From NCBI RefSeq assembly GCF_001423125.1, contig NZ_LMNW01000012.1, forward strand, positions 688,772-752,771: DNA of 64,000 nucleotides, in the 5' to 3' direction. The notes beneath the pieces are model-generated. The model was not told where the DNA came from. It was given only the letters and a program-made list of their open reading frames with translations, and did no database searches. A program made the translations under genes and the position numbers. The stretch is from Duganella sp. Leaf126 (GTDB taxonomy: Bacteria > Pseudomonadota > Gammaproteobacteria > Burkholderiales > Burkholderiaceae_D). Below, one piece after another: positions 450 to 55,954 of this stretch (positions are counted from its first letter, which is position 1; the number at the start of each line of letters is the position of its first letter).

Positions 450-524
450 GGGAGGTTAGCTCAGGGGTAGAGCACTGCATTCACACTGCAGGGGTCGCAA
501 GTTCGAAACTTGCACTTCCCACCA
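450..524 (+). tRNA. tRNA-Val (anticodon CAC)
   Basis: The sequence folds as a canonical cloverleaf. The acceptor GGGAGGT (450-456) pairs with ACTTCCC (514-520), with one G-T pair, followed by discriminator A and encoded CCA (522-524). The anticodon stem CTGCA/TGCAG encloses the loop TTCACAC with anticodon CAC at 482-484. The T arm contains GTTCGAA. The gene is intact although the prophage lies directly downstream, as expected when a phage attachment site restores the tRNA 3' end. Confidence 0.96.
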
Positions 525-612: not shown

Positions 613-1614
613 TTACTTCACGATCAAGTCCGATAAACGATCCAGCGCCTCGCGCTGGGCCTCGACCTGCAAGTGGGCATAGCGCTGAGTCGTTTGCACA
701 TTCGCGTGGCCCAGGATTTTACCGATGGTGTACAGATCCGCCCCCAGGGCCAGCAGGATGCTCGCGCACGAGTGCCGCAGGTCGTGGAAATTCGCGTGCG
801 GCAAGCCAGCCTTCACGCGAGCTCGGCGCCAAGCGGACTGCACGCCGTATAGGGTCATACGCAGGGGGTAATGGTACAGCCATGGCCGCAGTGCCGGGAT
901 AATTGGGACCACGCGCATCTTCGCAGTTTTGGTATTGCTCGATGGGAAGGTGATCGAATCCTTTCCGATGTGTTGTTTCTCGATTTTGAAGAGCTCCCCC
1001 CTGCGGGCGCCGGTAAGAAGCGCACCCCAAATCGCCGCCTGCGCCACGATGCTGCAGTGTGAGGCAATTCGCTGTACCTGGGCAATGGTGAGAAAAACCT
1101 CCCGCTTGTTGTTCACCGGCACGCTTTCGATCCTCAAGCCGTAGTTTTCCGGCGTCATTCGGTGACGCCAGGCCAGCGTAAGGCCCTTCTTTGCACACGC
1201 CAGCGATCGATTGATCGTGGCTGGCGCGTACGCCGGTTCCAGCTCGCCAGTCTTTCTGTTGGGGATGCGCTTGCTCATATCGCGAATCACGTGGTCCGCA
1301 AACTCTTGCGCCTGGCTCGCTTTGTATTTCTCAGCCCACAACCCGAGCCGCTTGGCGTGGTGTTTCGATGTTTCGGCGCTGCGCAGGCCCTCGGAATGTT
1401 CGATGTAGAGGGCCAGAATGGCCGCCATAGGCGGGTCGCCAGGAATGACCACCTGCTTCTTCTTGGGCGCCCGCGCCACGGCGGAGCGCAGCTCGGCCTC
1501 TACTCGCTTGGCATCACTCGCAGTTGCACCTTCCGGCAACTTTCGGTGAACTCTCTTGCCGTCGACCATGATACCGACGTGCTTCCTGCCATGTTTATCG
1601 TCCCAGATGGACAT
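613..1614 (-). CDS. int: Phage tyrosine integrase
   Basis: Catalyses site-specific recombination between phage and chromosomal attachment sites. Numbered from the earlier possible start at 1644, the catalytic set is complete: R214 in TGARRGE, probably K239, H287-x-x-R290 in HDLRH, H313 in LGHAN and nucleophile Y322 in QRYAH. The N-terminal ~65 residues form an arm-binding-like region, followed by a core-binding domain and the C-terminal catalytic domain. I chose the ATG at 1612-1614 because AAAGGA lies about 9 bases upstream; the ATG at 1644 has a weaker site and would add 10 residues. It is the last gene of the PL operon and overlaps the HTH gene upstream. Confidence 0.95.
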   Translation of the reverse strand: MSIWDDKHGRKHVGIMVDGKRVHRKLPEGATASDAKRVEAELRSAVARAPKKKQVVIPGDPPMAAILALYIEHSEGLRSAETSKHHAKRLGLWAEKYKASQAQEFADHVIRDMSKRIPNRKTGELEPAYAPATINRSLACAKKGLTLAWRHRMTPENYGLRIESVPVNNKREVFLTIAQVQRIASHCSIVAQAAIWGALLTGARRGELFKIEKQHIGKDSITFPSSNTKTAKMRVVPIIPALRPWLYHYPLRMTLYGVQSAWRRARVKAGLPHANFHDLRHSCASILLALGADLYTIGKILGHANVQTTQRYAHLQVEAQREALDRLSDLIVK

Positions 1615-1832
1615 TGCTGATTTTCCTTTAACCAAGTTTTGCATTCCGCCAAGTCGTAGCGCTTCGAACGCTTGCCGACTGGCGTATAAGGTAATCCGTT
1701 TTGCTCGAGTCGTCGCACTGTTGATTCACTGACCCCGAGCGCAGCGCAGAGCTGCTGGCGATTTAGCCCGCCAGCTGTTTGACTTGCAACAAGCTCTGCG
1801 ATTCGCTTGAGCTCGTTCTCGTTCATCATCAT
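1500..1832 (-). CDS. Helix-turn-helix protein, excisionase-like
   Basis: A 110-residue protein starting with three Met codons; the first ATG overlaps the stop of the upstream gene (ATGA). Residues ~20-70 (LNRQQLCAALGVSESTVRR, then PYTPVGKRSKRYDL and CKTWL) fit the HTH_17/MerR-like excisionase fold, with a recognition helix followed by a small wing. Its position directly before int supports a recombination directionality factor. The C-terminal ~35 residues are read in a second frame across the 5' end of int, an overlap of 115-145 bases, which is unusually long. The alternative is a plain transcriptional regulator. Confidence 0.72.
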   Translation of the reverse strand: MMMNENELKRIAELVASQTAGGLNRQQLCAALGVSESTVRRLEQNGLPYTPVGKRSKRYDLAECKTWLKENQQCPSGTINMAGSTSVSWSTAREFTESCRKVQLRVMPSE

Positions 1833-4607: not shown

Positions 4608-5226
4608 AGCTGCCTCCCTCGGTGTCAGGCGACGTGCCGTCGAAGAGCGGCAGCCCAGTCTTGCCAGCCGCATCCGCATCAGCCTTGGCGCGGCCTTGTT
4701 CGTAGTGCGCATCACTGCAAAACCCTCGGCCCATCCAGAGGGTATTCGACGGGCGGCCGCAGAAGCAGGTCGGAAACGGATCAGCCTTGTTGGCGCTGTA
4801 CCAGGCCTGCGGCTCACTCGCCCACGGCGCGGCCTCATCCGGTACGCCAACACCCATGAGGCTGTTCTGCACCCAGGTCATTGCCGCCTCGGCGCCGGCG
4901 CCGCGCCGCCACTCGATCCAAGCGGCCTGGTTGCCGACCAGCACGTCATGCATGATCTTGGCGTCGGAGTGGATGCGACGCTCCAGCGCGGCGATGCGCT
5001 CCATGCGCTCCCGGGCAACCTGAGTCACCTGCTGGCGCGGCAAGTCGCCACCGAGAAGGAGGCCGATATCGTTCACGAGGTCTTGCAGGCCACGGCAGGC
5101 TTTATGCCAGTTGCCTACCTGCGCATGCAGTTGAGCGACACGTTTGTCGCGTTCGGCCAGCTGCTGCTCGGCGCTGGCCAGGCTGATTTTTACTGCAGCC
5201 AGTTCCGTTTCCGTGTTTGCGCTCAT
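4600..5226 (-). CDS. Phage hypothetical protein with N-terminal coiled coil
   Basis: A 208-residue protein starting with ATG in an ATGA overlap with the RdgC fusion gene. Residues ~5-45 and ~70-85 have heptad-like Leu/Ala spacing ([20 protein letters not shown]), suggesting a coiled coil. The second half has a Cys pair region ([19 protein letters not shown], then SDAHYEQG) that looks like a small zinc-binding unit. The function is unknown. Confidence 0.65.
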
Positions 5227-6692
5227 GCGGCACCGCCGTGCGCCAGCAGCTCGCGGTTGCCGTTCGACTGCATCGGGCCAACGACCGATCCCTCCATCGC
5301 CTCCAGCAGGCGCGCTGCCCGGTTGTAGCCGATCAACAGGTGGCGCTGGACCGGCGAGATCGACGCGCGCTGGTTGGTGCGCACCACTGCCACGGCCTGC
5401 TCGTACAGCGGATCGACGGCACTGCCGTCGCCGGCCGGCACGTCAGCGGCCAGGTTCGTCACCACGCGCTGCTCGCGCACTGGCTCGTCGCCTTTGGCGG
5501 GTGCCTGGGTTGGCTCGACAATTTCGATGGCAGCGACGAGCAGCAGTTGCTGAGACTGCGAGCCGGCTGGCAGAGCCTTAGCCATGGCCAGCGCTGCCTC
5601 TACGGCGCCCAAGCTCTTTTCGGCCATGTGTTCGCGCACGCTTTCGATCACGGGCTGGATCGTTTTTTCATAGAGTTCGTTCAGCACGGCGCGGTGCATA
5701 TCGCGCGTCTTGTACATTTCGGCCGTGAGGCGGATGGCGCGCTCGACGTTCTGCTGCGTGCCGGCTTGCGGGCGCTTCTCAACGCCCGGCGCGCCCACCG
5801 TCGCTTCACCGCCCAGCGCTTCCACGATATCGGCCAGCAGCTTGGCCAGCTCGCCCGTCATCAGCATGAAGTCGCCGTCGAAGCGTTCGTCGTCGTTGCG
5901 GCTGGTGCCGCGCGTTTCTTCTGTCAGCACGTCGAGCGGCTTGACGCTCTTGATGGCCAACGTCTCGTCCAGCACGAACGAAATCTTGCTGTCCCAGGTC
6001 ATCGCCAGGCGAGTGCACTGCTTGCCGGCTGCAATGTGGCGGCGCACGTCGTCCGGCTCGAGGGTGTGGCGCTTATACGCGACCTGAGCTTTGCTCTCGC
6101 CAGTGGCGCGCATGATGGCGTCCTGGTCGATGGTGAAGCCGGCCGGCGCTTCGTCGGACTGCAGCCACTCGGTCATCACGCCCACCGGCGAGCGCTGTAC
6201 GCGCAAGCTTTCCAGCGGTATCTTGTCGACCGCCTTGAGCAGCAGCTTGATGACTTCGTCGGCCTTCGCCGGGCTGGCCGCGTCCACCACCAGCCAGCCG
6301 TTGACCGGATCGATCCAGGTCCAGGTGTTTGACTCGATACTGAAAGCGCGTGGCAGCAGCTCGTCGGTGACGCGCTCCTTCAATTCCTTCATGGCCTTCT
6401 TGCCCGGCGCGAAGCCCTGGGCCTCTTCCATTTCGGCGGCGCGCGCCTTCGTCACCTGGTTGATGACGGTGGCCGGCAGCAGCTTCTTCTCGCCGCGCAG
6501 GCGGATCAGCATCTGCTTGTTGACTGCGTGTACCAGCGCGCCGTCCTTGCGGGGCGAGTCCCAGCCCTGGCGGATCAGCTCGGTGCTGCTGGCCGGCGCG
6601 AAGGCGTTGGAAGCGAGCGCTTCGGCCAGCGCTTCGGCGGTCATTGCCCAGTGCGCCGGCAGCCGATAAACCTGTAAATTTTTAAACATCAT
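5223..6692 (-). CDS. rdgC: RdgC-like recombination protein fused to an FtsK gamma domain
   Basis: Residues 1 to about 300 match RdgC, the ring-shaped DNA-binding protein that restrains Rec[12 protein letters not shown], then GWDSPR, the LLPATVINQ region, and [15 protein letters not shown]. Usual RdgC is about 300 residues; this protein is 489. A linker of ~125 residues leads to a C-terminal segment (about 428-490) that is a clear FtsK gamma winged helix: [35 protein letters not shown], then QSNGNRELL. The gamma domain of FtsK reads KOPS sites and activates XerD. The start ATG at 6690-6692 follows AAAGGA; a second ATG lies at 6689. It sits between NinB and unknown small genes in the PL operon. 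Confidence 0.9.
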
Positions 6693-6699
6693 CAATCCT

Positions 6700-7164
6700 T
6701 TAATAGCCGCGCGGCGGCGCTTCGTGAAATTCGACGCCCATCTGGCCGCCGAAAGCGTGTATTTGCTCCATGTACTGGGCGAATCCCTTGACCGTAAGGT
6801 CGGTGCTGCTACCCACCAGAACCGGCTGTCCGCCCGGATCGAAATCCCATTTGCGGTAGCTTTCTTCCTTGCACAGCTCTGGGTCGTATTCCTCCGGCAG
6901 AAACTGCTGCTTGAAGTACTCGTGCCAGATTTCAGCGCTGTACTGGCGCTGGTCGCTCCAGCACTGCTCTGCTATATCCTTAAGGGGCCCGGCCCACATG
7001 CGAGCGTTCTGATCCAGCTTTCGGGCTTTCACTTCCTCCCGCACCAGCACCTCCAGCGGCTTCTCCGCGTCGAGTGGCAGGTTGCGGAGCAGGGCGATGG
7101 CGCGGTCGACATGCTCTTGGCCGCGAAGCAGCAGCTTGCGCTGCTCGAACTTCGGGCGCGTCAT
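6700..7164 (-). CDS. ninB: NinB/Orf-family recombination protein
   Basis: NinB (Orf) of lambda binds ssDNA and SSB and can replace RecFOR in recombination. This 154-residue protein has the family pattern: [20 protein letters not shown] then [38 protein letters not shown] and [11 protein letters not shown]. The start ATG at 7162-7164 overlaps the stop of an 11-codon mini-ORF (ATGA), with GGGAG about 8 bases upstream. It works with the exonuclease, RecT and RdgC-like proteins of the same operon. Confidence 0.85.
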
Positions 7165-7196
7165 GGCGGTGCTCCCGCCGACCAGCGCGCCGTCAT
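7161..7196 (-). CDS. 11-codon mini-ORF coupling ninB to the upstream gene
   Basis: ATG at 7194-7196 overlaps the stop of the 357-aa gene (ATGA) and the TGA at 7161-7163 overlaps the ninB start (ATGA). The peptide is [11 protein letters not shown]. The GGGAG coding for part of AGA also serves as the ribosome site for ninB. The role is probably translational relay rather than a functional peptide. Confidence 0.4.
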   Translation of the reverse strand: MTARWSAGAPP

Positions 7197-8266
7197 GCTG
7201 GCACCGCCTCGGAGCTGAGGGCGATGACCTTGTTCGGCGCCCGGTCCCAGCCGCGAACTTCGTCCTCCGTGAACTTGCCGGCTTCCGACAGGTCGCTGGT
7301 GTAACCGCACGTGCCGGCGCGGTGGTACAGGCTGTTCTGCTCGTTCCATATGGCAAACAGTGCTGGCTTCCCTGGGAACAGAATGTCGCGCAGCACGGCG
7401 GCGCGCTCGAACTTCATCGCCTTGATCGCACTCGCCATTTCACCCTCGATCCGCTGGCGGCGCTGGCGCGCGTTGCGCTTTACGCGCGGGTCGCCCGGGC
7501 ATGCCGCGTAAAGCTCCCGGTGATCTGCCCACTCAACGCCATGTTTACCCGTGACGACCATCCAGCGGCCATTCAGGCTGTAGTACGCAGCGCCGTAGAC
7601 CACGCGCCCTTTGCGGGTGATCGCATAGACTTTTGCCCCATCTTCGATGGCAACGCCGTCGCGTGTGAAGCCGTTGCTTGGGCTGTTGAAAGAAGCGCGC
7701 CCAAGATGCTCGACGTAGTGGCCCGAGGATCGCTGACTATGCTTGGCATATTCCAGCGCAGTTGCGCCGTTCAAGCCGATCTTCGGGGCCGATGGCTCGA
7801 ACACATAGCCGGTGAAGGCGTTCAGCAGGTAGTCCCGTATGCGGAGCCTTGCTCGTTCCATTTCGATGCGCAACAGGTATGGCATGCGCGCCTCCTTACC
7901 GAAGTCGTAGCGCCCACCGTTGCGGTTCTCAGACAGCGTGACGTCCTGCCACATCTCGAATTTGATGCAGCGGCCCGACATCTCGAGCTGTCCCTTTAGG
8001 TCGCCCTTAGAGCAGGTGCGGTGGTTGAGCGCAATTGCCTTGTATTGGTCCGACTCATCCCAAGGCAAGACGCTCCATCCGATTCGGCGCAGGGTTTGCA
8101 CAATCCGTGCAAACACATCGCGCTTAAACTGTCGCTCCCATGCCTTTTCTGCCGGCCATCCGCCAGCGGCGCGCGCTGCCGAGATTCCTTCCTCTCGAAT
8201 GTACACGTAGGCGTCACCGAAGCCGATGGCGCCTACGCGCTCGATGCGGCCCTTGGTCATCGTCAT
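7193..8266 (-). CDS. Phage hypothetical protein, 357 aa, with UVR-like helical segment
   Basis: Starts at ATG 8264-8266 in an ATGA overlap with the KTSC gene. The first ~220 residues are mixed alpha/beta with many charged residues (RRIGWSVLPWDESDQYK, KFEMWQDVTL) and no recognised fold. Around residues 285-305, RIEGEMASAIKAMKFERAAV then LRDILF resembles the UVR hairpin of UvrB/UvrC. The C-terminus has LFAIWNEQNSLYHRAGT and GYTSDLSEAGKFTEDEV, a pattern met in phage proteins that list ambient residues around a small beta sheet. The function is unknown; it lies among recombination genes. Confidence 0.7.
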   Translation of the reverse strand: MTMTKGRIERVGAIGFGDAYVYIREEGISAARAAGGWPAEKAWERQFKRDVFARIVQTLRRIGWSVLPWDESDQYKAIALNHRTCSKGDLKGQLEMSGRCIKFEMWQDVTLSENRNGGRYDFGKEARMPYLLRIEMERARLRIRDYLLNAFTGYVFEPSAPKIGLNGATALEYAKHSQRSSGHYVEHLGRASFNSPSNGFTRDGVAIEDGAKVYAITRKGRVVYGAAYYSLNGRWMVVTGKHGVEWADHRELYAACPGDPRVKRNARQRRQRIEGEMASAIKAMKFERAAVLRDILFPGKPALFAIWNEQNSLYHRAGTCGYTSDLSEAGKFTEDEVRGWDRAPNKVIALSSEAVPA

Positions 8267-8967
8267 GGCGCTACGCCCAGGTCGACCACGTCGATGACGA
8301 TGCCACGGCAGTACACGATGCCGTCTTCCATGATGTCGAAGGTCGCGTGCGGCACGTCGGTGCGGTAGGTCCAGCTGGTGTCATCTTCCGCGCACCACAG
8401 GGCTTCGACCTTGCGCGCCAGCGGTTCGCGCGAGAAGTAGTCCTTGAGCTCGACGTCGTCTTCAATGTTCTCGCGCCCAGGCAGCATGCCCTGCACATCA
8501 ATCAGCGCCGTGCCACCGTCGTAGCAGCCGAATTCATCATCGATGGCGCCGCGCAGTTCCATCAGGTCGTCGCTGGCGCCGAAGATCACCACCAGGCCGG
8601 CGGCAGCCGCCTGGGCTTGCTCTTCCTTCGTCATGTCGAATGGGTATTCGCGGCCGTCCAGCGTCACGGCCAGCAGTTCCTTGCTCAGCTTCGGTGCCGC
8701 GACCGGCGCCGCCGCCGGCACACCCATGTTGGTGTACGGGTGCTTGTCCTTGTGCGGCTGGATGTGCGCAATGAAGTGCTTGCCGATCGATTCGGCAGTG
8801 GCGAAGGCAGCGAACTCCTGGGCCGTGAAATTGGCGTAGTGGTACACGTTGCCGGGCGCGCCCTTGGCAAAGAACTGGATGGCCAGAGTCTGGCTGGCGG
8901 CGTCGTGACCGATGGCCGCGAGCTTGCTGGATTTGACCGGGGTGAGGGCGATGCTATTTGCGTTCAT
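8263..8967 (-). CDS. KTSC-domain phage protein
   Basis: A 234-residue protein. The N-terminal ~70 residues are a KTSC domain: VKSSKLAAIGHDAASQTLAI, FFAKGAPGNVYHYANFT, then EFAAFATAESIGKHFIAHI, the short beta domain named after the similar domain of lysyl-tRNA synthetase-associated and phage proteins. A linker leads to an acidic C-terminal half (GREYPFDMTKEEQAQAAAAG, WCAEDDTSW, DIMEDGIVYCRGIVIDV). It sits directly downstream of the exonuclease gene. KTSC proteins have no defined reaction. The start ATG at 8965-8967 follows GGAGTC. Confidence 0.8.
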   Translation of the reverse strand: MNANSIALTPVKSSKLAAIGHDAASQTLAIQFFAKGAPGNVYHYANFTAQEFAAFATAESIGKHFIAHIQPHKDKHPYTNMGVPAAAPVAAPKLSKELLAVTLDGREYPFDMTKEEQAQAAAAGLVVIFGASDDLMELRGAIDDEFGCYDGGTALIDVQGMLPGRENIEDDVELKDYFSREPLARKVEALWCAEDDTSWTYRTDVPHATFDIMEDGIVYCRGIVIDVVDLGVAP

Positions 8968-8991: not shown

Positions 8992-10893
8992 TTATGCGGC
9001 GTACTTCGTCTGCACGGCGGCGATGTGGCGGGTCAGAGCAGCGCACATGCGCGGGAAATCAGCTTCGTGATACAACTTGGCGGCGCGGTCGGTGGCCGCC
9101 GGCGCAAAGCCCAACGCGGTCAGAAAGTCAGCGGTCAGCGTGATGCCGAGGCGTTCGCTGATCTGGCCTAGGCGCAGCGCCGGCGGTGTTTGCGCGTTCA
9201 CCGCGGCGCCGGTCGAGAACAGATCTGCCTCAGCAGTGCCTGCCTGCGAGTTGGCGAGGTCGCTCAGCCGGCCCTGTTCGGCCAGTGCTGCAGCCTGGTC
9301 TCGCGCGATGCTGGCGTGTGCAGCTGCAAGGGCGCTTTCGCGGGTTGGCTGCGCGTCCTGGGCGGCGCGGTCGGCTGCTGCCTGGCTGGCGCGCTGTTCG
9401 GCGAGCGCGGCGGCCTGCTGTTCCATCTGCGCCTTCGTGGCAGCGGCGACGCGCTCGCGCTCTGCCTGGTCGGCTGCGGCTTGACGCTCGGCATCGGCGC
9501 GGCGCTGGGCGGCCAGCTCGGCAGCCGCAGCAGCTTCGGCCTTGGCCTTTTCCTCGGCCGCGATCTTGGCGCGCAGCGCTTCCTGCTTGGCGGCCTCGGC
9601 GCGCTCGTGATCAGCGATGCGGGTGCGCACCACCAGCTGGAAGTCGTCCATCGGCTTGCCGATGATCTGCGCCATATCCATGAACAGGGCGCCGTACCCG
9701 GTGGCGTTTTCTTTGCACCATGCCTGCTTGAGGCGGTAATCGCCGGCCTTCTGGTTGGCTTCGATCTTGGCATTCGCCAACGTAGTGTTCACGGCATCGT
9801 GCAGGCTGGCCAGCGTGCGCTTGTTTTTCATGGCGCCAGCGAAGTCGGGCGGCAGCAGAGCCAGGCGCAGCGGTGCAATTTCCTTTTCCAGCCCTGCGAT
9901 GTGGTCTGCGTAATCGCGCTTGCCTTCGTTGAGGATCGTTTCCTTGATCTGTTCTTTGCGGGTCTTGACCAGCTTTTCCAGTTCCAGGCGCTTTGCGCGG
10001 AACTGGGCCTTGATGTGGTCGACCGTGCGCATCACCTCGTCGATGGTCGAGGTCTGCGCCAGCGCGGCCGCCTTGGCCAGATCGAGCTTGTCCTCGGCCT
10101 CACCGCAGAACTTCACGTTGTATTCGGCGTCCGCGAAGTCCTGGTCATCCTGCAGGTCGGTCTTGATAGTGCCGAGGAACTTCTCGGCAGCCTTCTGGTA
10201 GGCCATAAGGTTGCTGCTGACCACTTTGCCCTCGGTCTGCACGACCAGCGCGGGCAGCGCGGCGGCCGGCGCGGCTTCCGGCTTCACTGCATGGTCCACC
10301 TGCTTGTAGCTGGCAACATCGGCGTCGAATTGCTCCCAGCCAGCGCGGATGCGGTCGAACCAGGCGGCGTCCGGATACACCCACATCCAGACCATGTTTT
10401 CCTCGGTGCCGTCGGACACCATGAACATCCATTTCTCTGCACCGGTGACCATCAGCTGCTGTTGGACCTGTGGCTTGTGGTCGTCGGGCAGCTCGTTGCC
10501 GGCCACGGCGGCGGCCAGCTCTTCGTTCCACTGCTTGTGCTCGAAGCCGATGGTCTCGTCCATGGTCAGGCCGTCGCAGGATGCGCTCTCGCGCCCCAGC
10601 GACAGTGTCACCGGGTACAGGTCGTCGCCCAAGATTTTCTCGGCGTTCGGGCGGGCCGTGGCCTCGACCTGGTGGCCGTAGTCCAGGATGTGTTCCTGCA
10701 CCCACTCGCTGAATTCTTCCGCGAGGCCGGTTGCCTTCATGCGCACCAGCTCTGATCGGGTGACCTTTTTTGACAGGCCCAGCATGGCAGCCGCCTCGCT
10801 GGCGCCGTGGTGCGCGAAGCGGAAGGCGTGCCAGTCGTCGCTGCCCTGCAGCAGGTTGTGGATTTCACGGGTGAGGGTGGTCTCGCGTTGCAT
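8992..10893 (-). CDS. YqaJ-family viral exonuclease with long coiled-coil tail
   Basis: YqaJ enzymes are lambda-exonuclease-like 5'-3' nucleases that make ssDNA for a partner annealing protein. The N-terminal ~220 residues carry the fold: GSDDWHAFRFAHHGASEAAA, E77 in GHQVEATA, D107 in SCDGLT and E118-x-K120 in GFEHKQW, the metal-binding PD-(D/E)XK set, then QVQQQLMVTG. From residue ~230 the protein is helical and Ala/Glu/Lys/Gln-rich, with long heptads around 430-540. At 633 residues it is about twice the usual length, because of the tail. It is next to recT, the expected pairing. Confidence 0.9.
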   Translation of the reverse strand: MQRETTLTREIHNLLQGSDDWHAFRFAHHGASEAAAMLGLSKKVTRSELVRMKATGLAEEFSEWVQEHILDYGHQVEATARPNAEKILGDDLYPVTLSLGRESASCDGLTMDETIGFEHKQWNEELAAAVAGNELPDDHKPQVQQQLMVTGAEKWMFMVSDGTEENMVWMWVYPDAAWFDRIRAGWEQFDADVASYKQVDHAVKPEAAPAAALPALVVQTEGKVVSSNLMAYQKAAEKFLGTIKTDLQDDQDFADAEYNVKFCGEAEDKLDLAKAAALAQTSTIDEVMRTVDHIKAQFRAKRLELEKLVKTRKEQIKETILNEGKRDYADHIAGLEKEIAPLRLALLPPDFAGAMKNKRTLASLHDAVNTTLANAKIEANQKAGDYRLKQAWCKENATGYGALFMDMAQIIGKPMDDFQLVVRTRIADHERAEAAKQEALRAKIAAEEKAKAEAAAAAELAAQRRADAERQAAADQAERERVAAATKAQMEQQAAALAEQRASQAAADRAAQDAQPTRESALAAAHASIARDQAAALAEQGRLSDLANSQAGTAEADLFSTGAAVNAQTPPALRLGQISERLGITLTADFLTALGFAPAATDRAAKLYHEADFPRMCAALTRHIAAVQTKYAA

Positions 10894-10941: not shown

Positions 10942-11871
10942 TTACTCTTGCTCGTGGGCCCAACTGTCGATGGTCAGTTTTTGGGCCTCGGTGAACGTGG
11001 CGCGAGTACTCAACATCGCGATCAGCTGCGCCGGCGTCTTCTTCTTGCTCAAGACCATTTCGCGCCACACCGGCGTTTTCTCGGCAAACAGCTCATCCGT
11101 GCATTCCGGCAGCTGGTCGATGGTGTGCGGCTCAGCGGCAGCCTGGTGCGGCGCCGGGGTGATGTCGCGAATTTCGCGGCTCGACTCGTCGAGCTCGTCA
11201 GGGGTGTAGACACCCAGGATCACGTCCGGCGCATACAGGCGCGCCCAACGCTTCACGGCGAGGTATGCCAGCTGCTGTTTGGGATCGGTGGCCCACAGCG
11301 GGGAGTTGCGCACGCTGGCCTGCACCAGCAGCAGTTCGAGGGTGCGCGGCTGTGTCTCGCCGCGCAGCGTGGCCGAGATACGGATGCCCAGGCCGATCTC
11401 GGCGTTCAAGTCGTAGTCGGGCGCATGGAACTGATAGGCCTTGCGGTAATCCTTGTCGCCCTTTTTGCCGCGTTCGGGCACGCTGACCACCTTGGTCTTG
11501 CCGATGATGCGCTCCCATGGGCCGAACCACTCATAGTTGAAGCGGTCTTGCGTCACGCCGCTCGATACGATGGCCGCATTCACAAGCTGACCTTCGTAGC
11601 CAAGGGCGCCGTTGACCACGTGTGTCTTCTGCGCAACCGCAAAAGGGTTCATCTGCCACTGCATTGCCTGCATGATCACGGCCGCGCAATCCGAGGCACT
11701 GCTCTTGAGGTGGTCGGGGATCGTCGCGCGCCCCTTGGCCATGATGTCGGCCAGGCGCATGATGCTTTCCATGCTGCTGACATCGAGGACGAGTGAGGCG
11801 GTGCTGGCCGGCGCCATTGGGGCGCTCGACAGCTGCATGGCGGATTGCGCTTCTCGGGTGACTGCGTTCAT
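10942..11871 (-). CDS. recT: RecT-family single-strand annealing protein
   Basis: RecT anneals complementary ssDNA and promotes strand exchange with the exonuclease product. The 309-residue protein shows the family core: SMESIMRLADIMAKGRATIP, MQWQMNPFAVAQKT, GYEGQLVNAAI, FGPWERIIGKTKVV and the basic YLAVKRWARLYAPDVI near residue 215. The start ATG at 11869-11871 has AGGAGAG four bases upstream, better than an upstream in-frame ATG at 12015. It lies just upstream of the exonuclease in the same transcript, the usual exo/ssap module. Confidence 0.92.
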   Translation of the reverse strand: MNAVTREAQSAMQLSSAPMAPASTASLVLDVSSMESIMRLADIMAKGRATIPDHLKSSASDCAAVIMQAMQWQMNPFAVAQKTHVVNGALGYEGQLVNAAIVSSGVTQDRFNYEWFGPWERIIGKTKVVSVPERGKKGDKDYRKAYQFHAPDYDLNAEIGLGIRISATLRGETQPRTLELLLVQASVRNSPLWATDPKQQLAYLAVKRWARLYAPDVILGVYTPDELDESSREIRDITPAPHQAAAEPHTIDQLPECTDELFAEKTPVWREMVLSKKKTPAQLIAMLSTRATFTEAQKLTIDSWAHEQE

Positions 11872-11938
11872 GCTTCTCTCCTGTTTAACTTCGTTGTTGC
11901 CGCCGGTGGCAGGTATTTTCGCGGTGTTGGGGCGCCAG

Positions 11939-12073
11939 CTACTTGTCGCCTTTGCCGATCCAGATTTCTTGCTCCCGCTGCGCGGCGCGCGCATCGGCTT
12001 GCTGCATGTGTCCATAGGTCGCCGCGATCAAGATCAGCAGCGCTGCGATGGTCAGAAATTCACGCAGATTCAT
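11939..12073 (-). CDS. Small membrane protein, 44 aa
   Basis: The start ATG at 12071-12073 is preceded by GGAGG with 5-base spacing, and the gene overlaps its upstream neighbour by 14 bases. MNLREFLTIAALLILIAATYG forms one N-terminal transmembrane helix followed by a charged tail (QREQEIWIGKGDK). Orientation and role are unknown. Small single-span proteins of this kind are common in phage early operons. Confidence 0.65.
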   Translation of the reverse strand: MNLREFLTIAALLILIAATYGHMQQADARAAQREQEIWIGKGDK

Positions 12074-19842: not shown

Positions 19843-21830
19843 AGCGCGACGACTTCACCATGTCGCTGGACCTGGGCCACGAGCTGATCATTGACAACTT
19901 CGCCGGAGGCGGCGGCACCAGCACCGGCCTGGAAGAAGCCTTCGGCCGCCCGGTCGATATCGCCATCAACCACGACCCCGAAGCGCTGGCAATGCACGCC
20001 ATGAACCACCCACACACGAAGCACCTGTGCGAAAGTGTGTGGGACGTGGACCCGATCAAGGTCACGAACAACCAGCCGGTGGGCCTGGTCTGGCTGTCGC
20101 CGGACTGCAAGCATTTCAGCAAGGCCAAGGGCGGCACTCCGGTGGCAAAGAATATTCGCGGGCTGGCCTGGGTGACGCTGCGCTGGGCGGCGAAGTGCAA
20201 GCCGCGCGTGATCATGCTCGAGAACGTCGAAGAATTTAAGACTTGGGGGCCGCTGCTGGTGGACGCAGAGGGTAACTTCCGGCCGGATCCGGCGAAGAAG
20301 GGCAAAACCTTCGAGAGCTTTCTGCGCCAGCTGCGCGCGCACGGTTACACGGTGGACCACCGCGAGCTGCGCGCCAGCGACCACGACACCCCGACCATTC
20401 GCAAACGCTTCTTCCTCGTGGCGCGCCGCGACGGCCTGCCGATCCGCTGGCCGGCGGCCACGCATGGTGCGCCGACCTCGCCGGGCGTGCTGGCGGGCAA
20501 GCTGCTGCCGCACCGCACGGCGGCCGAATGCATCGACTGGTCAATTCCGTGTCCGTCGATTTTCGAGCGCAAGCGCCCGCTGGCGCCGGCAACGCTGCGT
20601 CGCATCGCCAAGGGCATCATGCGCTACGTGGTGGAAGCGCCCGCGCCATTCATCGTGGGGCAGGGCGGCCCGATCTATTCCGGCAAGCCAGTGTCTGTCG
20701 GGCAGCCATTCGGCACCCTCACGACCGAAAACCACCGCGCCGTAGTCCTGCCTACCATCATCCCGGTCACCCATCAGAGCGGCGACAGGAGCGAGTCCGT
20801 GAGCGAACCGTTTCGCACGATCACCGGCGCGCAGCGCGGCGAGAAGGCGTTGGCCGTGGCCTCGATGGTGCAGATTGGTTACGGCGAGCGCGAGGGCCAA
20901 GCGCCGCGCGCGCTGGACATAGAGAAGCCGCTGGGCACCGTCACCGCCGGAGGCGGCAAGGCGGCGTTGGTCAGCGCATTCTTGAACGAACACGCCAACG
21001 CGAGCAACCAGCGCGTGATGCCGGTGAACGAGCCGCTGCGTACGATCTGCGCGCAAGTGAAGGGCGGCCACATCAGCATGGTCACCGCGCATATTACGAA
21101 GTTTCGCACCGGCGCCACTGGCAGCGACATGATGGAGCCGGTACCGACGATCACGGCCGGCCCGAAAGAAAACCCGGCCGGCGCGCCGCACGCGCTGGGC
21201 GTCGTGACGGCGAACTTGATTCATATGGGCCATGGGGAAGGCAAGGAAGGCGGCAAACGTTTCAGCCACGGAATCCGTGATGTCGAGCAGCCGATCAACA
21301 CCATCACCGCGAGCGGCGCCACGGCTGGCGTCGTTACCAGCAGTCTGGTGAAATTGCGCGGCACCAGCAGCACCGCGAGCGTCGAGGAGCCGCTACACAC
21401 CATCAGCGCCGGCGGCCAGCATCACGCCGAGGTGCGAGCCTTCCTGCTCAAGTACTACGGCACCGACCAGCATCCTCGCCTCGAGGAGCCGCTGCACACC
21501 GTGACCACCAAAGACCGCTATGGCCTGGTCACCATCCAAGGCGTGGACTACCAGATCGTGGATATCGGTCTGCGCATGCTCGACCCGGCCGAGCTTTACC
21601 GTGCTCAGGGCTTTCCAGCCGACTACGTGATCCGCGAAATCCCGGATCCAGCGCTGCTATTCAAGGACGGCAGCCAGGTAGAAGGCAGCCCGCTGGATCT
21701 GCCGCGCATTTCGCTCACGAAGTCAGCACAGGTGCGCATGTGCGGCAACAGCGTTTGCCCGCCAATGGCGCGCGCGCTGATACAAGCAAACTTTATGCAT
21801 GAGCGTGACGTGGGTTGGGTGGCAGCGTGA
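19839..21830 (+). CDS. Phage DNA (cytosine-5) methyltransferase with repeat-rich target region
   Basis: Methylates cytosine at C5 using S-adenosylmethionine. Motif I is DNFAGGGGTSTGLEEAFG (residues ~19-36). The catalytic loop is SPDC90KHFSKAKGG, a phage variant of the usual PCQ. ENV is at 128-130, and the C-terminal motifs include RAQGFP and MCGNSVCPPMARAL. Between about residues 285 and 580 there are eight copies of a short pattern like EPLxTITAGG, one every 25-45 residues, replacing an ordinary target recognition domain. At 663 residues it is longer than standard enzymes. There is no partner endonuclease, so it probably protects phage DNA from host restriction. Confidence 0.92.
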   Translation: MKRDDFTMSLDLGHELIIDNFAGGGGTSTGLEEAFGRPVDIAINHDPEALAMHAMNHPHTKHLCESVWDVDPIKVTNNQPVGLVWLSPDCKHFSKAKGGTPVAKNIRGLAWVTLRWAAKCKPRVIMLENVEEFKTWGPLLVDAEGNFRPDPAKKGKTFESFLRQLRAHGYTVDHRELRASDHDTPTIRKRFFLVARRDGLPIRWPAATHGAPTSPGVLAGKLLPHRTAAECIDWSIPCPSIFERKRPLAPATLRRIAKGIMRYVVEAPAPFIVGQGGPIYSGKPVSVGQPFGTLTTENHRAVVLPTIIPVTHQSGDRSESVSEPFRTITGAQRGEKALAVASMVQIGYGEREGQAPRALDIEKPLGTVTAGGGKAALVSAFLNEHANASNQRVMPVNEPLRTICAQVKGGHISMVTAHITKFRTGATGSDMMEPVPTITAGPKENPAGAPHALGVVTANLIHMGHGEGKEGGKRFSHGIRDVEQPINTITASGATAGVVTSSLVKLRGTSSTASVEEPLHTISAGGQHHAEVRAFLLKYYGTDQHPRLEEPLHTVTTKDRYGLVTIQGVDYQIVDIGLRMLDPAELYRAQGFPADYVIREIPDPALLFKDGSQVEGSPLDLPRISLTKSAQVRMCGNSVCPPMARALIQANFMHERDVGWVAA

Positions 21831-50437: not shown

Positions 50438-53400
50438 ATGACCGTTGATGTCGCTACCCTCGCAATCCGAATCGACTCGTCTGCAGCGCAGACTGCTGCG
50501 CAGGACATGGACCGCATGCGCGAGGCTGGCGGCCGCGCCGAGAAGCAGACTGCGATCCTTGAAGATGCGACGCGCAAGCTGACCGGTGCATTGGCGATGC
50601 TGGGCCTGGGCGCTGGTATCAGCGCCATCATCCACCTGGCAGACGAATACACCAAATACAACGCGCAGTTGAAACTCGCTACCCAGTCCGCGCGCGAGCA
50701 CGCCCAAGCGCTTGAAGACGTGCGCCGGATCGCAACGACCGCCCAGCAAGACCTGGCCGCCACCGGTATGCTGTACGCGCGTATCTCCAACGGCACGCGC
50801 GAGCTGGGCGTGCAGCAGAAGCAGGTGGCCGCCATCACGGAAACCGTCAACCTGGCTTTGAAAGTGTCTGGCGCCACCGCGATGGAGTCGGCATCGGCCC
50901 AGCTGCAGTTGTCGCAGGCCTTCGCGCAGGGCGCGCTGCGCGGCGAAGAATTCAATTCCGTGAACGAGGCCGCACCTCGCCTAATGAAGGCGCTGGCGGA
51001 CGGCCTGGGGATTCCGGTGGGCGCACTGCGCGCAATGGCTGCCGAGGGCCAAATTACGTCCAAAATTATGGCCGAGGTGCTGCCCGGCGCGCTTGAGCAA
51101 CTGCGCGAGGAAGCCAAGCAGGTGCAGACCATTGGCGGCGCGTTCACGGTCCTCAAGAACAACCTCATGGAGTTCGTGGGCGTGCAGGCCCAGGCCAGCG
51201 GCTTCGTGTCGCTCTTGGTGACCGGCATCGAGGCGCTGGCCAGCAACCTGACCTTGCTGGCCGGGGTGATCGGCACTTTAGTGGCAGTCAATGTCGTGAA
51301 CTGGCTCACAAGCTGGATCGCAAAGACTTACGAACGTATTACCGCTGCTTACGCCCAGGTTGCGGCCGAGAATGCCTTGCGCGCTTCGGCAATTGCGGCC
51401 GCAGAAGCAGAAAGCGCCCAGGCTGCCGCCACGCTTGCACGTGCGCAAGCTGGTCGTCTGGCTCTGGTTGCCACGCAGGAGGCCGTTGTCGCCCAACTTC
51501 GTGCCGCGAATGCCACGCTCGCTGGAGCGCAGGCTGCTGTTGCGGCGGCGAGTGCGGCGGGGGCGCAAAGTTACGCTCTTCGCGTACTGCGTGACGCTAC
51601 TCGCGATCTCGCTGTCGCTGAGACCATGCGGGCTGCTTTGCTGACGGAATCGGCCGCGCTAGACCGGGCAAAAATCGCCGCATCAGCGCAAATCACAGCC
51701 GCAACTGCCGCGCAGACCGCTGCGCAAAACGCGTTGAATGCGGCAAATGGTGTTGGTGTTTCGTCGGTGGGGTTGCTTGGGCGCGCTGTTGGTGCATTGG
51801 GTGGGCCGATCGGCGCCATCGTGACGATACTCGGTCTGGCTGCCACTGCGTGGATGGTCTGGTCGAATCGCGCAAAGGAATCGAATGCCGCCGTCGCGGA
51901 ATCATTCGACGAGGCGCACGCACGTATCGTGAAAGGCCTGGACGAGCAGATCGCCAAGAACGAAAAATTGATTCAACTGCAAAAGCTGGGTGTGCCGAAA
52001 GACAAAGCTGAAAAAGACCTGCCGATCATCGACCAGCTGGCCAAGGCATCCGCATTACTCAACGACATCAACCAGCGTGCCGGCGACTATGCTCCGGGCA
52101 AAGGCAAGAGCGAAACAGATGCTCTGTTTGACCGCGTGAAGGTGTTGAAGCAGATCGGCGAACTCACCGACAAAATGCAGAAACGTGATTCCACCGGTGA
52201 CGCGGCTGCAGCCTTCGGGCCTGAGGCGAAAGCGCTCGAGGCTGTGCGACAGCGCTTGACCGGCGTTAATAAGCAATACCTCGACGATCTGAAAGCACTT
52301 CAAGCGGCCCGTGAAGCCAACGCCATTCCTGAGAAAGAATACATCGAACTGGTTTCGAAGTTGGCCACCGAAACTTGGAAGGCATCTGACGCTGGCAAGG
52401 ACTTCGCCGCATCGAGCAAAGCACAGGTGGAGGCACGTTTGGAGGCAATCAAATCCGGTGTTGAGCGCGAAAAAAGCATTCGAGCCGAAGGCGTGGCAGC
52501 GATCACCGAGTTGCAGCGGCAGGGCCTGGCGTCGGACTACGAGGTGTACGAAGCGAAGCGCTCGGCGGCGGTTCGCGCCGGCGAAGATGCGGGTCAAGTG
52601 CTCAGCGCCGAGATTGCTGCACTGGCGGCTTACGGCGGCAAGGATGTCGCGGAGCGGATCGCGAACGATGCAAAAATCAAGAAGCTGAGCGCGGACCGCA
52701 CTGAGGCGCTACGGGCGTCACTGGTTGCAGAAAAGCAGCTGCGTGTCGCGTACGAATACGATCGGGACAAGCCGACACGCGATGCTGAGGCGGCCAACGC
52801 TAAAGAGCTGGTCGCGATCAACAATCAGATCGCGGCCACGGAGCTGCAAATTGCCAGCTACGGGAAACTGCCGTCGGCCATTAGCGCAGCGACCATCGCC
52901 CAACTGGAAGCGGAAAAGGCGACGGTCTCCGTCTTCGAGGGAAGTGAAAAGGCTGTTGCAGCAATCGATGCCAAGATCGCGGCATACGCACGCCTGTCGG
53001 CCGTCCAGAAGGTCAGCGAGGCTCTGGACACCAGCACCGACGTGGCCAAAGCCAAGGAGCTGCTGGAGATCCTGGTCGCAGTGGATAACGCGGCCAAGTC
53101 GGCCGCGCAGGGAATGGCCTCATCGTTCGGAGCGGTCGGGTCGGCCATCGGCGGGCTGACGACTGCGCTGACGGAATACGCCGTTCAGCAGCAGGCCGTG
53201 TCCGCGCAGCTGGCGGCGGTGAAGGCGGACCCGAAGAGCAGCGCTGACAAGATCGCCAAGGCGGAGATCGCCGCCTCGCATGCTTCGGCTCAGGCGCAGA
53301 TCAAATCCTACGGTGACATGGCTGCGGCCTCGAAGGGATTCTTCAAAGAGAATTCCAAGGGTTACAAGCTGATGGAGACGACCGAGCGGGCCTTCCGAGC

Positions 53401-55954
53401 CTACGAAATGGCCATGGCTCTCGAGTCGATGGTCAAAAAGATCTTCTTCAAAGAGGGGGAGGTGGCGGCCAATGTGGCACTGAACGCGACCAAGCTCACG
53501 GGCGAGGCCGCAACCACCGCGGCATCTACCGGACTGGCCGCGACCGAGGCGAGCGCTTGGGGCATTACGGCCGTGGTCAAGGCCATGGCGTCGCTGCCGT
53601 TTCCGCTGAACCTGGCGGCCGGCGCTGCGACGCTGGCTGCCGTCGTGGCAGTCGGCGCCAAGATGTTCGGCGGCGTCGGTGGCGGGGCCAGCGTTTCGCA
53701 GCAGCGGCAGGCAGCGAACGGCACGGGCTCTATTCTGGGCGACAGCAATGCAAAGTCGGACTCGATCGCGCACAGCCTGGCCATCATGGAAAAAAATTCC
53801 GGCCTCGGTCTGGCACACACGATCTCGATGGACCTGTCTTTGAAACAGATGGTGTCGAGCATCGGCAACCTTGCTGGCCTGTTGGCACGCGCTGGCGTCG
53901 TCGCGGCTGGTGGCGGTGCTGCGGCGGGCGTTCAGACTGGAACGACGACCCCGGGCGGCAACCTGGGCACTGCTGCTGGTATGGCGGCCGGCGGCCTGGG
54001 CGGCGCCGCGCTCGGCGCGTACGTTGGCATGGGCGGGTTCATGTCCACCTCCCTGCTCGCCGTGGGTGGCCCACTCGGTCTCGCCATCGGCGCCGTGCTC
54101 GGCACGGTGCTCGGCAAGCAGCTGGGCAAGCTGTTCGGCACCACGACTTCTATCACCGACCAGGGTATTACCGGCAAGGCGATGTCCCTGGGCCAGATCA
54201 ACGATCTCGGCTTCACTGCGCAGGCCTACGCCGATGTGCAGACGAAGAAGAAAGCGTTCGGCTACACCTACAGCAACAAAAGCGATACCAAGCTGGCTTC
54301 GTTGTCTGATGAGATGAATGATCAGTTCACCATGATCATCACCGGGATGGGTGACACCATTCGAAGTGCAGCCGGCATCCTGGGCGTGGACGGCGCCGCA
54401 TTCAATGCAAAGCTCAATTCCTTCGTAGTTGATCTTGGCAAGATCAGTTTGAAAGACCTGACCGGCGAAGAGCAGCAGAAGGCGCTGGAGACAGCCTTCT
54501 CAAAATTGGGCGACGACATGGCCCGTTGGAGTGTGGCCGGCATTGCGAACTTTCAAAAAGTGGGGGAGGGCTATCTCGAAACGCTGGTGCGGGTCGCCAA
54601 TGAACAGATGCAGGTCAATGATGTTCTGGCCGTGCTGGGCAAGTCGTTCAACGCGACCGGCCTCAGTGCGGTGCAGCTCAGCCAGGATCTGATCGCGGCA
54701 GCGGGAGGGCTGGAAAAACTGACTTCGGGTACCGCGTACTTCGCGCAGAACTTCCTCAGCGAGGCAGAGCGTATGGCACCGATTACGAAATCGGTCCGCG
54801 TCGCGATGACCTCGCTCGGGCAGTCCGGCGTGACCACTACCGAGCAGTTCAAGGCGCTCGTGCTGGCGCAGGATCTGAACACGGCTGCCGGCCAAGCGAT
54901 GTATGCCCAACTGATCGCCATCGCGGAGCCATTTAAGCAGGCTGCGGATTACGCCGCCGAGCTTGCCGCTGTGACAGGGGATTTTGCTGCGGTAGCGAAG
55001 ACCGCCAGTGAGATCGCCAGCGAGCACCGCGATTTGCAACAGCAGTTGAACGAGTTGACGAAGAGCGACGCAGGGCTGCTGGCAATCCAGCGCGCCGGCA
55101 TCGCCGACGTAAATAAGGCGCTGTTCGACCAGGTGCAAGCCGCGAAGGCTGTTGTGTCGGCCAAGGACGCGCTGGCCAGCGCCTACGACAAAGAAGCGAC
55201 AGCGGCCAAGAGCGCGATTGAGAAATCGAAAGCGTGGGTGACGACGCTCAACGGCCTCAACAGCAATCTTGCGCTGGGCAACCAGTCCACCCTCACGCCG
55301 GAGCAGAAATACGCCGAGGCGCGGGCCCAATTCGAGAAGACACTGGCGGCGGCGAACGCCGGCGATTCGACAGCGCAGTCCGGGCTGTCGGCGGCGGAGC
55401 AGGCATTCCTCACGGCCTCGCAGGTGGTCAACGCGTCCGACGCCAAATATGCTGCGGACTACGCGCGCGTGATCGCGGCCAACCAAGACGCGGCCAAATG
55501 GGCATCTGAGCAGGTCAATCTGCAGCAGGCCAGCTACGACGCGCTGGAGAAGCAGGTCAAGAGTTTGGTGACCATCAACGACAGCGTGCTGACGGTGGCG
55601 CAGGCCATTGCTCAACTGCAGGTGGCGATGGGGGTCTCCGATGCCCAGGGCGTGAAGTTCACCAACGCGCCTGCGGTGACCGCCACGGTCGCCGGCGCCG
55701 CGCCGGTGGTCGACTACAGCCGCTACTCGGCTGCGTCGAATGCTGGATCGGACGCCCTTGTCGCCGAGGTCAAGGCGCTGCGCGAGGAAGTGAAAGCGCT
55801 GCGCTCCGACCAGGCTGCGCAGATCAGCGCGGTGGTAAAGGCGACCACCGAATCGAACGCGAAAGCCGCCGGAACAGTGGTGGCGGGCGTGGAGAAATCG
55901 GCCAAGGCTTCGGCCTGGGCCTCTACAGTGAAAAAGGATGCGTATGACCGATGA
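50438..55954 (+). CDS. Tape measure protein
   Basis: The longest gene, 1838 residues, sets tail length and is injected with DNA. The N-terminal ~230 residues are the tape measure domain (ATLAIRIDSSAAQTAAQDMD, GTRELGVQQKQVAAITETVN, FNSVNEAAPRLMKALADGLG). Helical coiled regions with heptads fill most of the rest. Hydrophobic segments near residues ~265-290, ~445, ~1055 and ~1190-1225 (LLAGVIGTLVAVNVVNWLTS; VGGPLGLAIGAVLGTVLG) could cross the inner membrane during DNA entry. The usual ~1.5 angstrom per residue would predict a tail near 275 nm (family rule, not measured). The C-terminus overlaps the next gene. Confidence 0.95.
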   Translation: MTVDVATLAIRIDSSAAQTAAQDMDRMREAGGRAEKQTAILEDATRKLTGALAMLGLGAGISAIIHLADEYTKYNAQLKLATQSAREHAQALEDVRRIATTAQQDLAATGMLYARISNGTRELGVQQKQVAAITETVNLALKVSGATAMESASAQLQLSQAFAQGALRGEEFNSVNEAAPRLMKALADGLGIPVGALRAMAAEGQITSKIMAEVLPGALEQLREEAKQVQTIGGAFTVLKNNLMEFVGVQAQASGFVSLLVTGIEALASNLTLLAGVIGTLVAVNVVNWLTSWIAKTYERITAAYAQVAAENALRASAIAAAEAESAQAAATLARAQAGRLALVATQEAVVAQLRAANATLAGAQAAVAAASAAGAQSYALRVLRDATRDLAVAETMRAALLTESAALDRAKIAASAQITAATAAQTAAQNALNAANGVGVSSVGLLGRAVGALGGPIGAIVTILGLAATAWMVWSNRAKESNAAVAESFDEAHARIVKGLDEQIAKNEKLIQLQKLGVPKDKAEKDLPIIDQLAKASALLNDINQRAGDYAPGKGKSETDALFDRVKVLKQIGELTDKMQKRDSTGDAAAAFGPEAKALEAVRQRLTGVNKQYLDDLKALQAAREANAIPEKEYIELVSKLATETWKASDAGKDFAASSKAQVEARLEAIKSGVEREKSIRAEGVAAITELQRQGLASDYEVYEAKRSAAVRAGEDAGQVLSAEIAALAAYGGKDVAERIANDAKIKKLSADRTEALRASLVAEKQLRVAYEYDRDKPTRDAEAANAKELVAINNQIAATELQIASYGKLPSAISAATIAQLEAEKATVSVFEGSEKAVAAIDAKIAAYARLSAVQKVSEALDTSTDVAKAKELLEILVAVDNAAKSAAQGMASSFGAVGSAIGGLTTALTEYAVQQQAVSAQLAAVKADPKSSADKIAKAEIAASHASAQAQIKSYGDMAAASKGFFKENSKGYKLMETTERAFRAYEMAMALESMVKKIFFKEGEVAANVALNATKLTGEAATTAASTGLAATEASAWGITAVVKAMASLPFPLNLAAGAATLAAVVAVGAKMFGGVGGGASVSQQRQAANGTGSILGDSNAKSDSIAHSLAIMEKNSGLGLAHTISMDLSLKQMVSSIGNLAGLLARAGVVAAGGGAAAGVQTGTTTPGGNLGTAAGMAAGGLGGAALGAYVGMGGFMSTSLLAVGGPLGLAIGAVLGTVLGKQLGKLFGTTTSITDQGITGKAMSLGQINDLGFTAQAYADVQTKKKAFGYTYSNKSDTKLASLSDEMNDQFTMIITGMGDTIRSAAGILGVDGAAFNAKLNSFVVDLGKISLKDLTGEEQQKALETAFSKLGDDMARWSVAGIANFQKVGEGYLETLVRVANEQMQVNDVLAVLGKSFNATGLSAVQLSQDLIAAAGGLEKLTSGTAYFAQNFLSEAERMAPITKSVRVAMTSLGQSGVTTTEQFKALVLAQDLNTAAGQAMYAQLIAIAEPFKQAADYAAELAAVTGDFAAVAKTASEIASEHRDLQQQLNELTKSDAGLLAIQRAGIADVNKALFDQVQAAKAVVSAKDALASAYDKEATAAKSAIEKSKAWVTTLNGLNSNLALGNQSTLTPEQKYAEARAQFEKTLAAANAGDSTAQSGLSAAEQAFLTASQVVNASDAKYAADYARVIAANQDAAKWASEQVNLQQASYDALEKQVKSLVTINDSVLTVAQAIAQLQVAMGVSDAQGVKFTNAPAVTATVAGAAPVVDYSRYSAASNAGSDALVAEVKALREEVKALRSDQAAQISAVVKATTESNAKAAGTVVAGVEKSAKASAWASTVKKDAYDR

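Follow-up and report, generated by a model that had tools for sequence, protein, structure and literature searches.

An RdgC protein is joined to the γ domain of FtsK in a single open reading frame of a prophage of Duganella sp. Leaf126, and the same join recurs in other phages. RdgC is a little-understood DNA ring that restrains RecA, and the way FtsKγ reads chromosome polarity (KOPS) is well understood; their natural joining makes it testable what phage RdgC does and whether phages read KOPS. The γ domain is a module under purifying selection that is attached to DNA-handling phage proteins, and the reading that we tentatively prefer is that it is reusable and directs RdgC rings to KOPS-bearing DNA. 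No description of an RdgC-FtsKγ fusion was found in the openly licensed PMC literature; both words occur there in only three papers, PMC5399837, PMC5063381 and PMC5963079, the last of which concerns in its accessible part the SOS response of Vibrio cholerae and no fusion. The γ domain on a phage terminase and stand-alone γ genes have already been published (PMC8190038). Some database records label RdgC-γ proteins as DNA translocase FtsK, and the pattern of fusion is thereby hidden.

RdgC and FtsKγ are joined in one phage gene

Positions refer to the window, which is the whole stretch of 64,000 nucleotides that was analysed (Table 1). The first-pass annotation had read the N-terminal ~300 residues of the protein as RdgC-like and its C-terminus as FtsKγ, and profile searches bear out both halves. 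The Pfam RdgC family (PF04381) matches residues 1-296 with an E value of 2.2e-110, over profile positions 1-298 of 298, and FtsK_gamma (PF09397) matches residues 426-484 with an E value of 4.2e-20 (71.7 bits against a cut-off of 30.6). When the PDB was searched by sequence, E. coli RdgC (2owl) was matched at 1.1e-60 and P. aeruginosa FtsKγ (2ve8) at 3.3e-17, and PHROGs agrees with Pfam and the PDB on both halves; judged by sequence, both domain matches are far beyond chance. The FtsK/SpoIIIE ATPase motor domain gave no match in the protein (Pfam, E 0.1). The start codon is the ATG at 6692, with a TTG one codon upstream also possible.

Table 1. Features of the prophage in the window, with the domains of the fusion protein.
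Feature	Position	Strand	Evidence or remark
tRNA-Val (cac)	450..524	+	ARAGORN
Tyrosine integrase of prophage	613..1644	-	Pfam 1.7e-20
Downstream ORF, 208 aa	4600..5226	-	No confident family; overlaps rdgC-γ stop by 4 bp
RdgC-γ fusion gene	5223..6692	-	489 aa; single ORF, no internal stop
FtsKγ winged-helix domain, aa 426-484	5241..5417	-	Pfam, Foldseek
Linker, aa 298-425, optional helical insert	5418..5801	-	AF2 model, architectures of relatives
RdgC domain, aa 1-297	5802..6692	-	Pfam, host alignment, Foldseek
NinB/Orf recombination mediator	6700..7356	-	Pfam NinB 3.1e-14, phrog_72 4.3e-28
phrog_7674 protein	7193..8266	-	8.4e-107 (PHROGs)
KTSC-domain protein	8263..8967	-	Pfam 1.2e-13
RecE-like exonuclease (YqaJ)	8992..10893	-	Pfam 1.1e-08, phrog_7655 4.9e-165
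RecT annealing protein	10942..12015	-	Pfam 1.5e-32

Structure prediction, which had been proposed as a check, also places a match to a solved protein on each half. An AlphaFold2 monomer model was built from 42 aligned sequences (mean pLDDT 84.5, pTM 0.59). Ten-residue blocks of the RdgC part are mostly near or above 90, with two at 69 (residues 251-270), and the γ part is at about 90 except at its end. By Foldseek the modelled RdgC part aligns to 2owy with a TM score of 0.94 by target length (rmsd 2.1), and the modelled γ to the KOPS-bound form 2ve9 with TM 0.86-0.87 by target length (rmsd 1.2). The likeness to RdgC (2owl, 2owy) covers the whole domain, with the same monomer fold and 81% identity to the RdgC of the host. 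The likeness to FtsKγ of P. aeruginosa (2ve8, 2ve9) amounts to 63% identity and an rmsd of 1.1-1.2, the KOPS-bound form included; compared with FtsK, however, the window protein has no motor domain, is one residue shorter before the wing and has leucine at the position of R1292.

Between the two domains the model predicts helices between residues 311 and 392, flanked by stretches with pLDDT below 50 (301-313 and 404-425). This helical insert has no family match in Pfam or PHROGs; it is present in some relatives and absent from others, and by eye one locus (L044) has a stretch that resembles it, yet no γ. Median dN/dS is 0.23 for γ (from 108 pairs, many with a high dS), 0.28 for RdgC and 0.41 for the linker. 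The host genome also encodes a separate FtsK and a separate RdgC (L003) of 298 residues, which has no tail, is 81% identical to the fusion where the two align and falls with Oxalobacteraceae such as Duganella.

On the minus strand the genes run in the order RecT, RecE-like exonuclease, KTSC-domain protein, phrog_7674 protein, NinB, RdgC-γ and the 208-residue ORF, with the NinB/Orf gene directly upstream of rdgC-γ. The placing of the fusion in a phage recombination operon is upheld by the RecE-like, RecT and NinB genes on its strand. The tRNA-Val gene adjoining the integrase is likely to be the attachment locus of the prophage, judging from the left end alone; in window numbering the contig stops at 72676, before the right end. 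The window also holds an ORF of 1838 residues (50438-55954).

With the window protein as query, 64 viral loci were found. RdgC and γ share one ORF in 45 of these, including one in which γ is partly deleted (L024), and γ is split off RdgC by a stop codon or frameshift in two (L018, L023). RdgC is without γ in 15, four of which are cut by a contig end (L036, L063, L064, L065), and γ is without RdgC in the remaining two (L067, L068). One locus (L021) encodes a protein 100% identical to the RdgC-γ of the window. Assembly error, which had been named as a possible source of the fusion, is ruled out by the 45 single ORFs, and the fusion stands, being broken into two ORFs in only two related viral loci. 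Carriers of the fusion in GenBank include Pseudomonas phage PA8, Achromobacter phage CF418P1 and Vibrio phages K120 and K242, so that the C-terminal extension for which a survey of RdgC homologues had been suggested does recur in other phages; furthermore, the Burkholderia plasmid pBVIE05 (GenBank) carries RdgC-γ beside ERF and an exonuclease.

Repeated gain or loss of γ and its other carriers

A genome scan for RdgC was analysed for its best 80 of 586 loci, where phage context was defined as a match to any of six window neighbours within the flanks of the locus. Among these best 80 of 586, γ is present in 9 of the 10 RdgCs with phage neighbours, the tenth (L212) being cut by a contig end, and in none of the 70 RdgCs without them. 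Phages with an rdgC too short for γ exist, ACP17, PdC23, SP-062, AchV4 and phiC725A among them. In an even sample of classes a γ match was obtained in 263 of 276 genomes; two matches were seen in only six, this host among them, so genomes seldom carry γ outside FtsK.

On a tree of 49 RdgC domains (32 with γ and 17 without, the rows having been picked partly for having γ) the γ label needs 11 changes, of which at least 10 are forced by starred branches. The γ domain has therefore been gained or lost repeatedly, the direction not being distinguished. Shuffled labels average 14.3 changes, and 21 of 500 shuffles are as low as 11; thus the label clusters only weakly on the tree. Many phage RdgCs of Oxalobacteraceae type group with Oxalobacteraceae chromosomes, that of L062 with Herbaspirillum, and those of Pseudomonas phages with P. 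aeruginosa; Skulduggery and K242 are on long branches and their placement is unsure.

For 28 γ domains the identity to the FtsKγ of this host, P. aeruginosa and E. coli was compared, with E. coli standing in for Vibrio hosts and this host for other Betaproteobacteria. Ten of the 11 γ domains whose host is known most resemble the FtsKγ of their own side, four of them by only one or two residues. Given in that order, out of 56-59 positions, the identities are 43/37/33 for the window, 31/40/32 for PA8, 28/37/31 for Skulduggery, 33/38/32 for phi297, 40/32/32 for pBVIE05 and 27/30/34 for K120; narrow cases are CF418P1 (38/37/31), Vogesella (35/34/32), P. koreensis (27/30/28) and K242 (28/30/31). 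A Gordonia γ (L071), whose own group has no reference among the three, gives 23/24/24. A host-like γ is compatible with capture from the host and with present function alike.

The range of γ carriers was surveyed by a viral scan with a γ alignment, in which the best 80 of 280 loci and four chosen annotated phage loci were taken, a set biased towards γ domains that resemble the query. In this set γ occurs in 84 ORFs, 57 of which also have RdgC. By eye, the 27 others comprise 11 of a primase-helicase type, six of the phrog_6576 type, three of an unnamed 160-residue type, two ParB-like proteins, one YejK/NA37, and one each of a clamp-like protein, a Gordonia phrog_12598 protein and a stand-alone γ protein, together with a γ split from RdgC (L100, in the phage of L018). 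Pfam searches covered 16 of the 27, with further Pfam and PHROGs searches on subsets; NA37 was matched at 2.8e-89 in L136, DUF5906 at 2.6e-19 in two carriers (Pfam), and the ParB-like phrog_4715 at 3.9e-7 in L122. In several carriers (L093, L096, L107 and L110 among others) γ lies between the primase and helicase parts, and another ParB-like protein (L101, 3167-4603) has two γ stretches by Pfam.

The clamp-like protein with a γ tail (L124, 3278-4186, the same as L068) is seen in one phage only, and a search for relatives returned only itself. It matches the DNA polymerase β-subunit family of Pfam at 1.8e-5, with 25.4 bits against a cut-off of 27, and phrog_947 at 6.1e-5; a better match is phrog_3007 (1e-19), named RusA-like resolvase. 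The notion that all partners of γ are rings, attractive in view of RdgC, the clamp-like protein, primase-helicase and terminase, is thus no more than an idea, since the clamp-like case rests on weak matches in one phage and YejK/NA37 is not known to be a ring.

In related phages of Pseudomonas type (L136, 1933-4186; L263, 5001-6427; L325, 1501-3715) γ is found on RdgC, on YejK or not at all at the same place of the operon. The operon of PA8 contains ssb, RdgC-γ and a lexA-like gene, and that of phiC725A ssb, RdgC without γ, yejK and a lexA-like gene; by eye, L136 has an ssb-like ORF, RdgC without γ, YejK-γ (Pfam) and, further on, a lexA-like ORF. The YejK/NA37-γ of L136 thus sits in a like operon, with γ on YejK and none on the neighbouring RdgC, and that RdgC is the sister of the PA8 RdgC on the tree (100/100), agreeing at 267 of 300 positions (89%). 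Among the matches listed, no accession is shared between 16 YejK rows (at least 65% identity) and 20 Pseudomonas RdgC-γ rows. A stretch of 27 bases at the 3' end of phiC725A yejK was considered as a γ remnant and rejected, as its score of 24 compares with 27 for the best of 200 shuffles. In two Nitrosomonas loci (L225, 4593-5030; L230, 8333-8875) a γ ORF truncated by the end of the locus, ~3.5 kb from rdgC, is probably the end of ftsK.

The contact surface of γ, KOPS and dif

Residues Q449, R450, L453, I454, G455 and N457 of the window protein correspond to Q1288, R1289, R1292, I1293, G1294 and N1296 of E. coli FtsK, which are listed as XerD contacts in PMC5052618 (Table 1). Five of these six are kept, and leucine replaces R1292, for which the paper describes a hydrogen bond to XerD as well as several contacts (PMC5052618). 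The contacts were counted over distinct sequences, 79 RdgC-γ and 29 FtsK, with one of 185 rows dropped as a fragment. Q1288, R1289 and R1297 are kept in all 79 RdgC-γ proteins, N1296 in 78 and G1294 in 76. At R1292, 65 of the 79 have Arg or Lys and 14 have neither (Leu in seven, the window included), whereas all 29 FtsKs have Arg or Lys (Fisher p 0.02). The GxR wing is absent from 13 of the 79, and 12 of these read TQG(I/V)Y there; such a wing in place of SNGNREVL was seen in L022, L041, L045, L055 and others, and its specificity may differ. Since the XerD contacts of γ are a subset of its DNA contacts (PMC5052618), conservation cannot separate DNA binding from XerD binding, and because most of the XerD-contact residues are kept the surface would allow the Xer system of the host to be controlled in trans.

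The first-pass annotation had suggested that the fusion could tie RdgC to KOPS or dif-like sites, and a link to such sites of the phage is not borne out. Its three plus-strand sites, at 20658, 27709 and 57917, are indeed GGGCAGGG; however, the KOPS count in the window is at chance, with three GGGCAGGG where dinucleotide shuffles average 3.5 (three or more in 66 of 100) and five GGGNAGGG, all on the plus strand, against 7.7 expected for both strands (dinucleotide shuffles). When each strand is modelled by an order-3 Markov chain, five GGGNAGGG on the plus strand of the prophage compare with 2.5 expected, and none on the minus strand with 1.7 expected; the polarity of 5:0 in the prophage is that of the host chromosome beside it, with 15:0 in the 100 kb of left flank. 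In the genome of the host GGGNAGGG occurs 650 times and the reversed motif 293 times, so target sites exist in the cell.

KOPS were also compared in 42 of the 64 viral loci, as 33 γ records (among them L018, with γ split off, and L024, with γ partly deleted) and 9 non-γ records. The γ records have GGGNAGGG at 219:23 and the reversed motif at 93:47, with 11.5 per 100 kb; the non-γ records, a weak control because seven of the nine are without the six phage neighbours in the stretch covered, have 38:6 and 21:10, with 11.3 per 100 kb. Given this likeness, and the 15:0 of the host flank, KOPS polarity is not tied to γ, and phage-borne KOPS were rejected as an explanation of the fusion. In ten of the 33 γ phages GGGNAGGG stands at 67:3 against 22:12 by order-3 Markov, exceeding the model on the late strand and falling below it on the other, yet it ranks only fifth of 56 same-letter arrangements by total count. 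In the records compared (G001-G042) KOPS are strongly polarised, with the favoured strand opposite to rdgC.

No dif-like site with up to three mismatches was found in the window, and in the prophage part up to the contig end (window and L276) the best candidate has nine mismatches, as in shuffles. Integration at dif, as in IMEX-like elements, was therefore rejected for the available prophage part, which has no dif-like site and has its integrase beside tRNA-Val. One dif-like 24-mer, two mismatches from the consensus, is on another contig of the host.

Possible roles of the fusion

By homology with solved RdgC, two copies of RdgC-γ would close into a ring on double-stranded DNA, and this ring would bear two γ domains on long flexible tethers. 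The γ domain would then most plausibly act as a sequence-directed DNA-binding and loading arm: by gripping G-rich octamers of the KOPS kind it would recruit RdgC rings to double-stranded DNA that bears KOPS, or retain them there, and the ring may limit RecA on that DNA; RecE, RecT and NinB of the same operon would carry out phage recombination. Taken as a whole, with its KOPS binding, ring loading and effect on RecA, this explanation is possible but falls somewhat short of probable. In its favour are the two confident domain matches, the nearly invariant contact surface and low dN/dS of γ, its occurrence on RdgCs with phage neighbours, its repeated gain or loss, its likeness to host FtsKγ and the many KOPS of the host genome. 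The partners of γ are DNA-handling proteins (primase-helicase, ParB-like, YejK/NA37, weakly the clamp-like protein, and terminase) rather than Xer partners, and DNA recognition is favoured over XerD control because it better explains this range. Several points count against KOPS targeting. Isolated γ binds KOPS weakly and FtsK uses several γ domains together, whereas an RdgC dimer would offer two; no KOPS preference is specific to γ phages; and the leucine at R1292, a position that as an XerD contact would also touch DNA, and the 13 of 79 proteins without a GxR wing also speak against it.

It is unlikely that RdgC-γ instead stimulates or inhibits XerCD at the dif site of the host without need of FtsK, with the consequence that chromosome dimer resolution is altered in lytic growth or lysogeny. 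The near-complete retention of Q1288, R1289, G1294 and N1296 (79, 79, 76 and 78 of 79), the single dif-like 24-mer of the host, the host-like γ domains and the report that a 9-residue γ peptide joined to XerC suffices to stimulate recombination (PMC5052618) are all consistent with such a role, but the window protein carries Leu at R1292 and Arg or Lys is missing there from 14 of 79, the partners of γ are replication, partition and recombination proteins, and the available prophage part has its integrase at a tRNA and no dif. Less probable again would be a decoy, in which free γ domains sit on KOPS or XerD and thereby misdirect FtsK or delay division during phage replication. A host-like γ, the many host sites and a stand-alone γ protein of 105 residues in a Vibrio phage would suit this; a decoy has no need of RdgC, however, and nearly all of the 84 γ ORFs (best 80 of 280 loci and four chosen) are tails or inserts of longer proteins. 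Alternatively, γ might add non-specific affinity for double-stranded DNA to RdgC, its KOPS history being irrelevant. This is improbable given the nearly invariant contact surface, which non-specific binding is not expected to require, even though phages show no γ-specific KOPS pattern, the wing is altered in 13 of 79, and only two E. coli-type KOPS are reported for the terminase-γ phages Sam46 and Sam112 (PMC8190038).

The preferred reading, targeting of RdgC rings by γ, can be widened to phages using γ as an exchangeable KOPS-reading module on DNA-encircling or genome-handling proteins (the RdgC ring, primase-helicase, ParB-like, YejK, clamp-like protein and terminase) that would load at KOPS or be oriented by them; in this general form it is rather doubtful. 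The RdgC-like two-domain fold is also found in another phage protein, λ RexA, for which the accessible part of PMC11077077 mentions no γ. A parallel in design is the small terminase of Samaravirus phages (Sam46, Sam112), likewise a phage protein with a host-like γ and few E. coli-type KOPS, which differs in being a packaging protein of Bacillus phages with γ at its N-terminus (PMC8190038).
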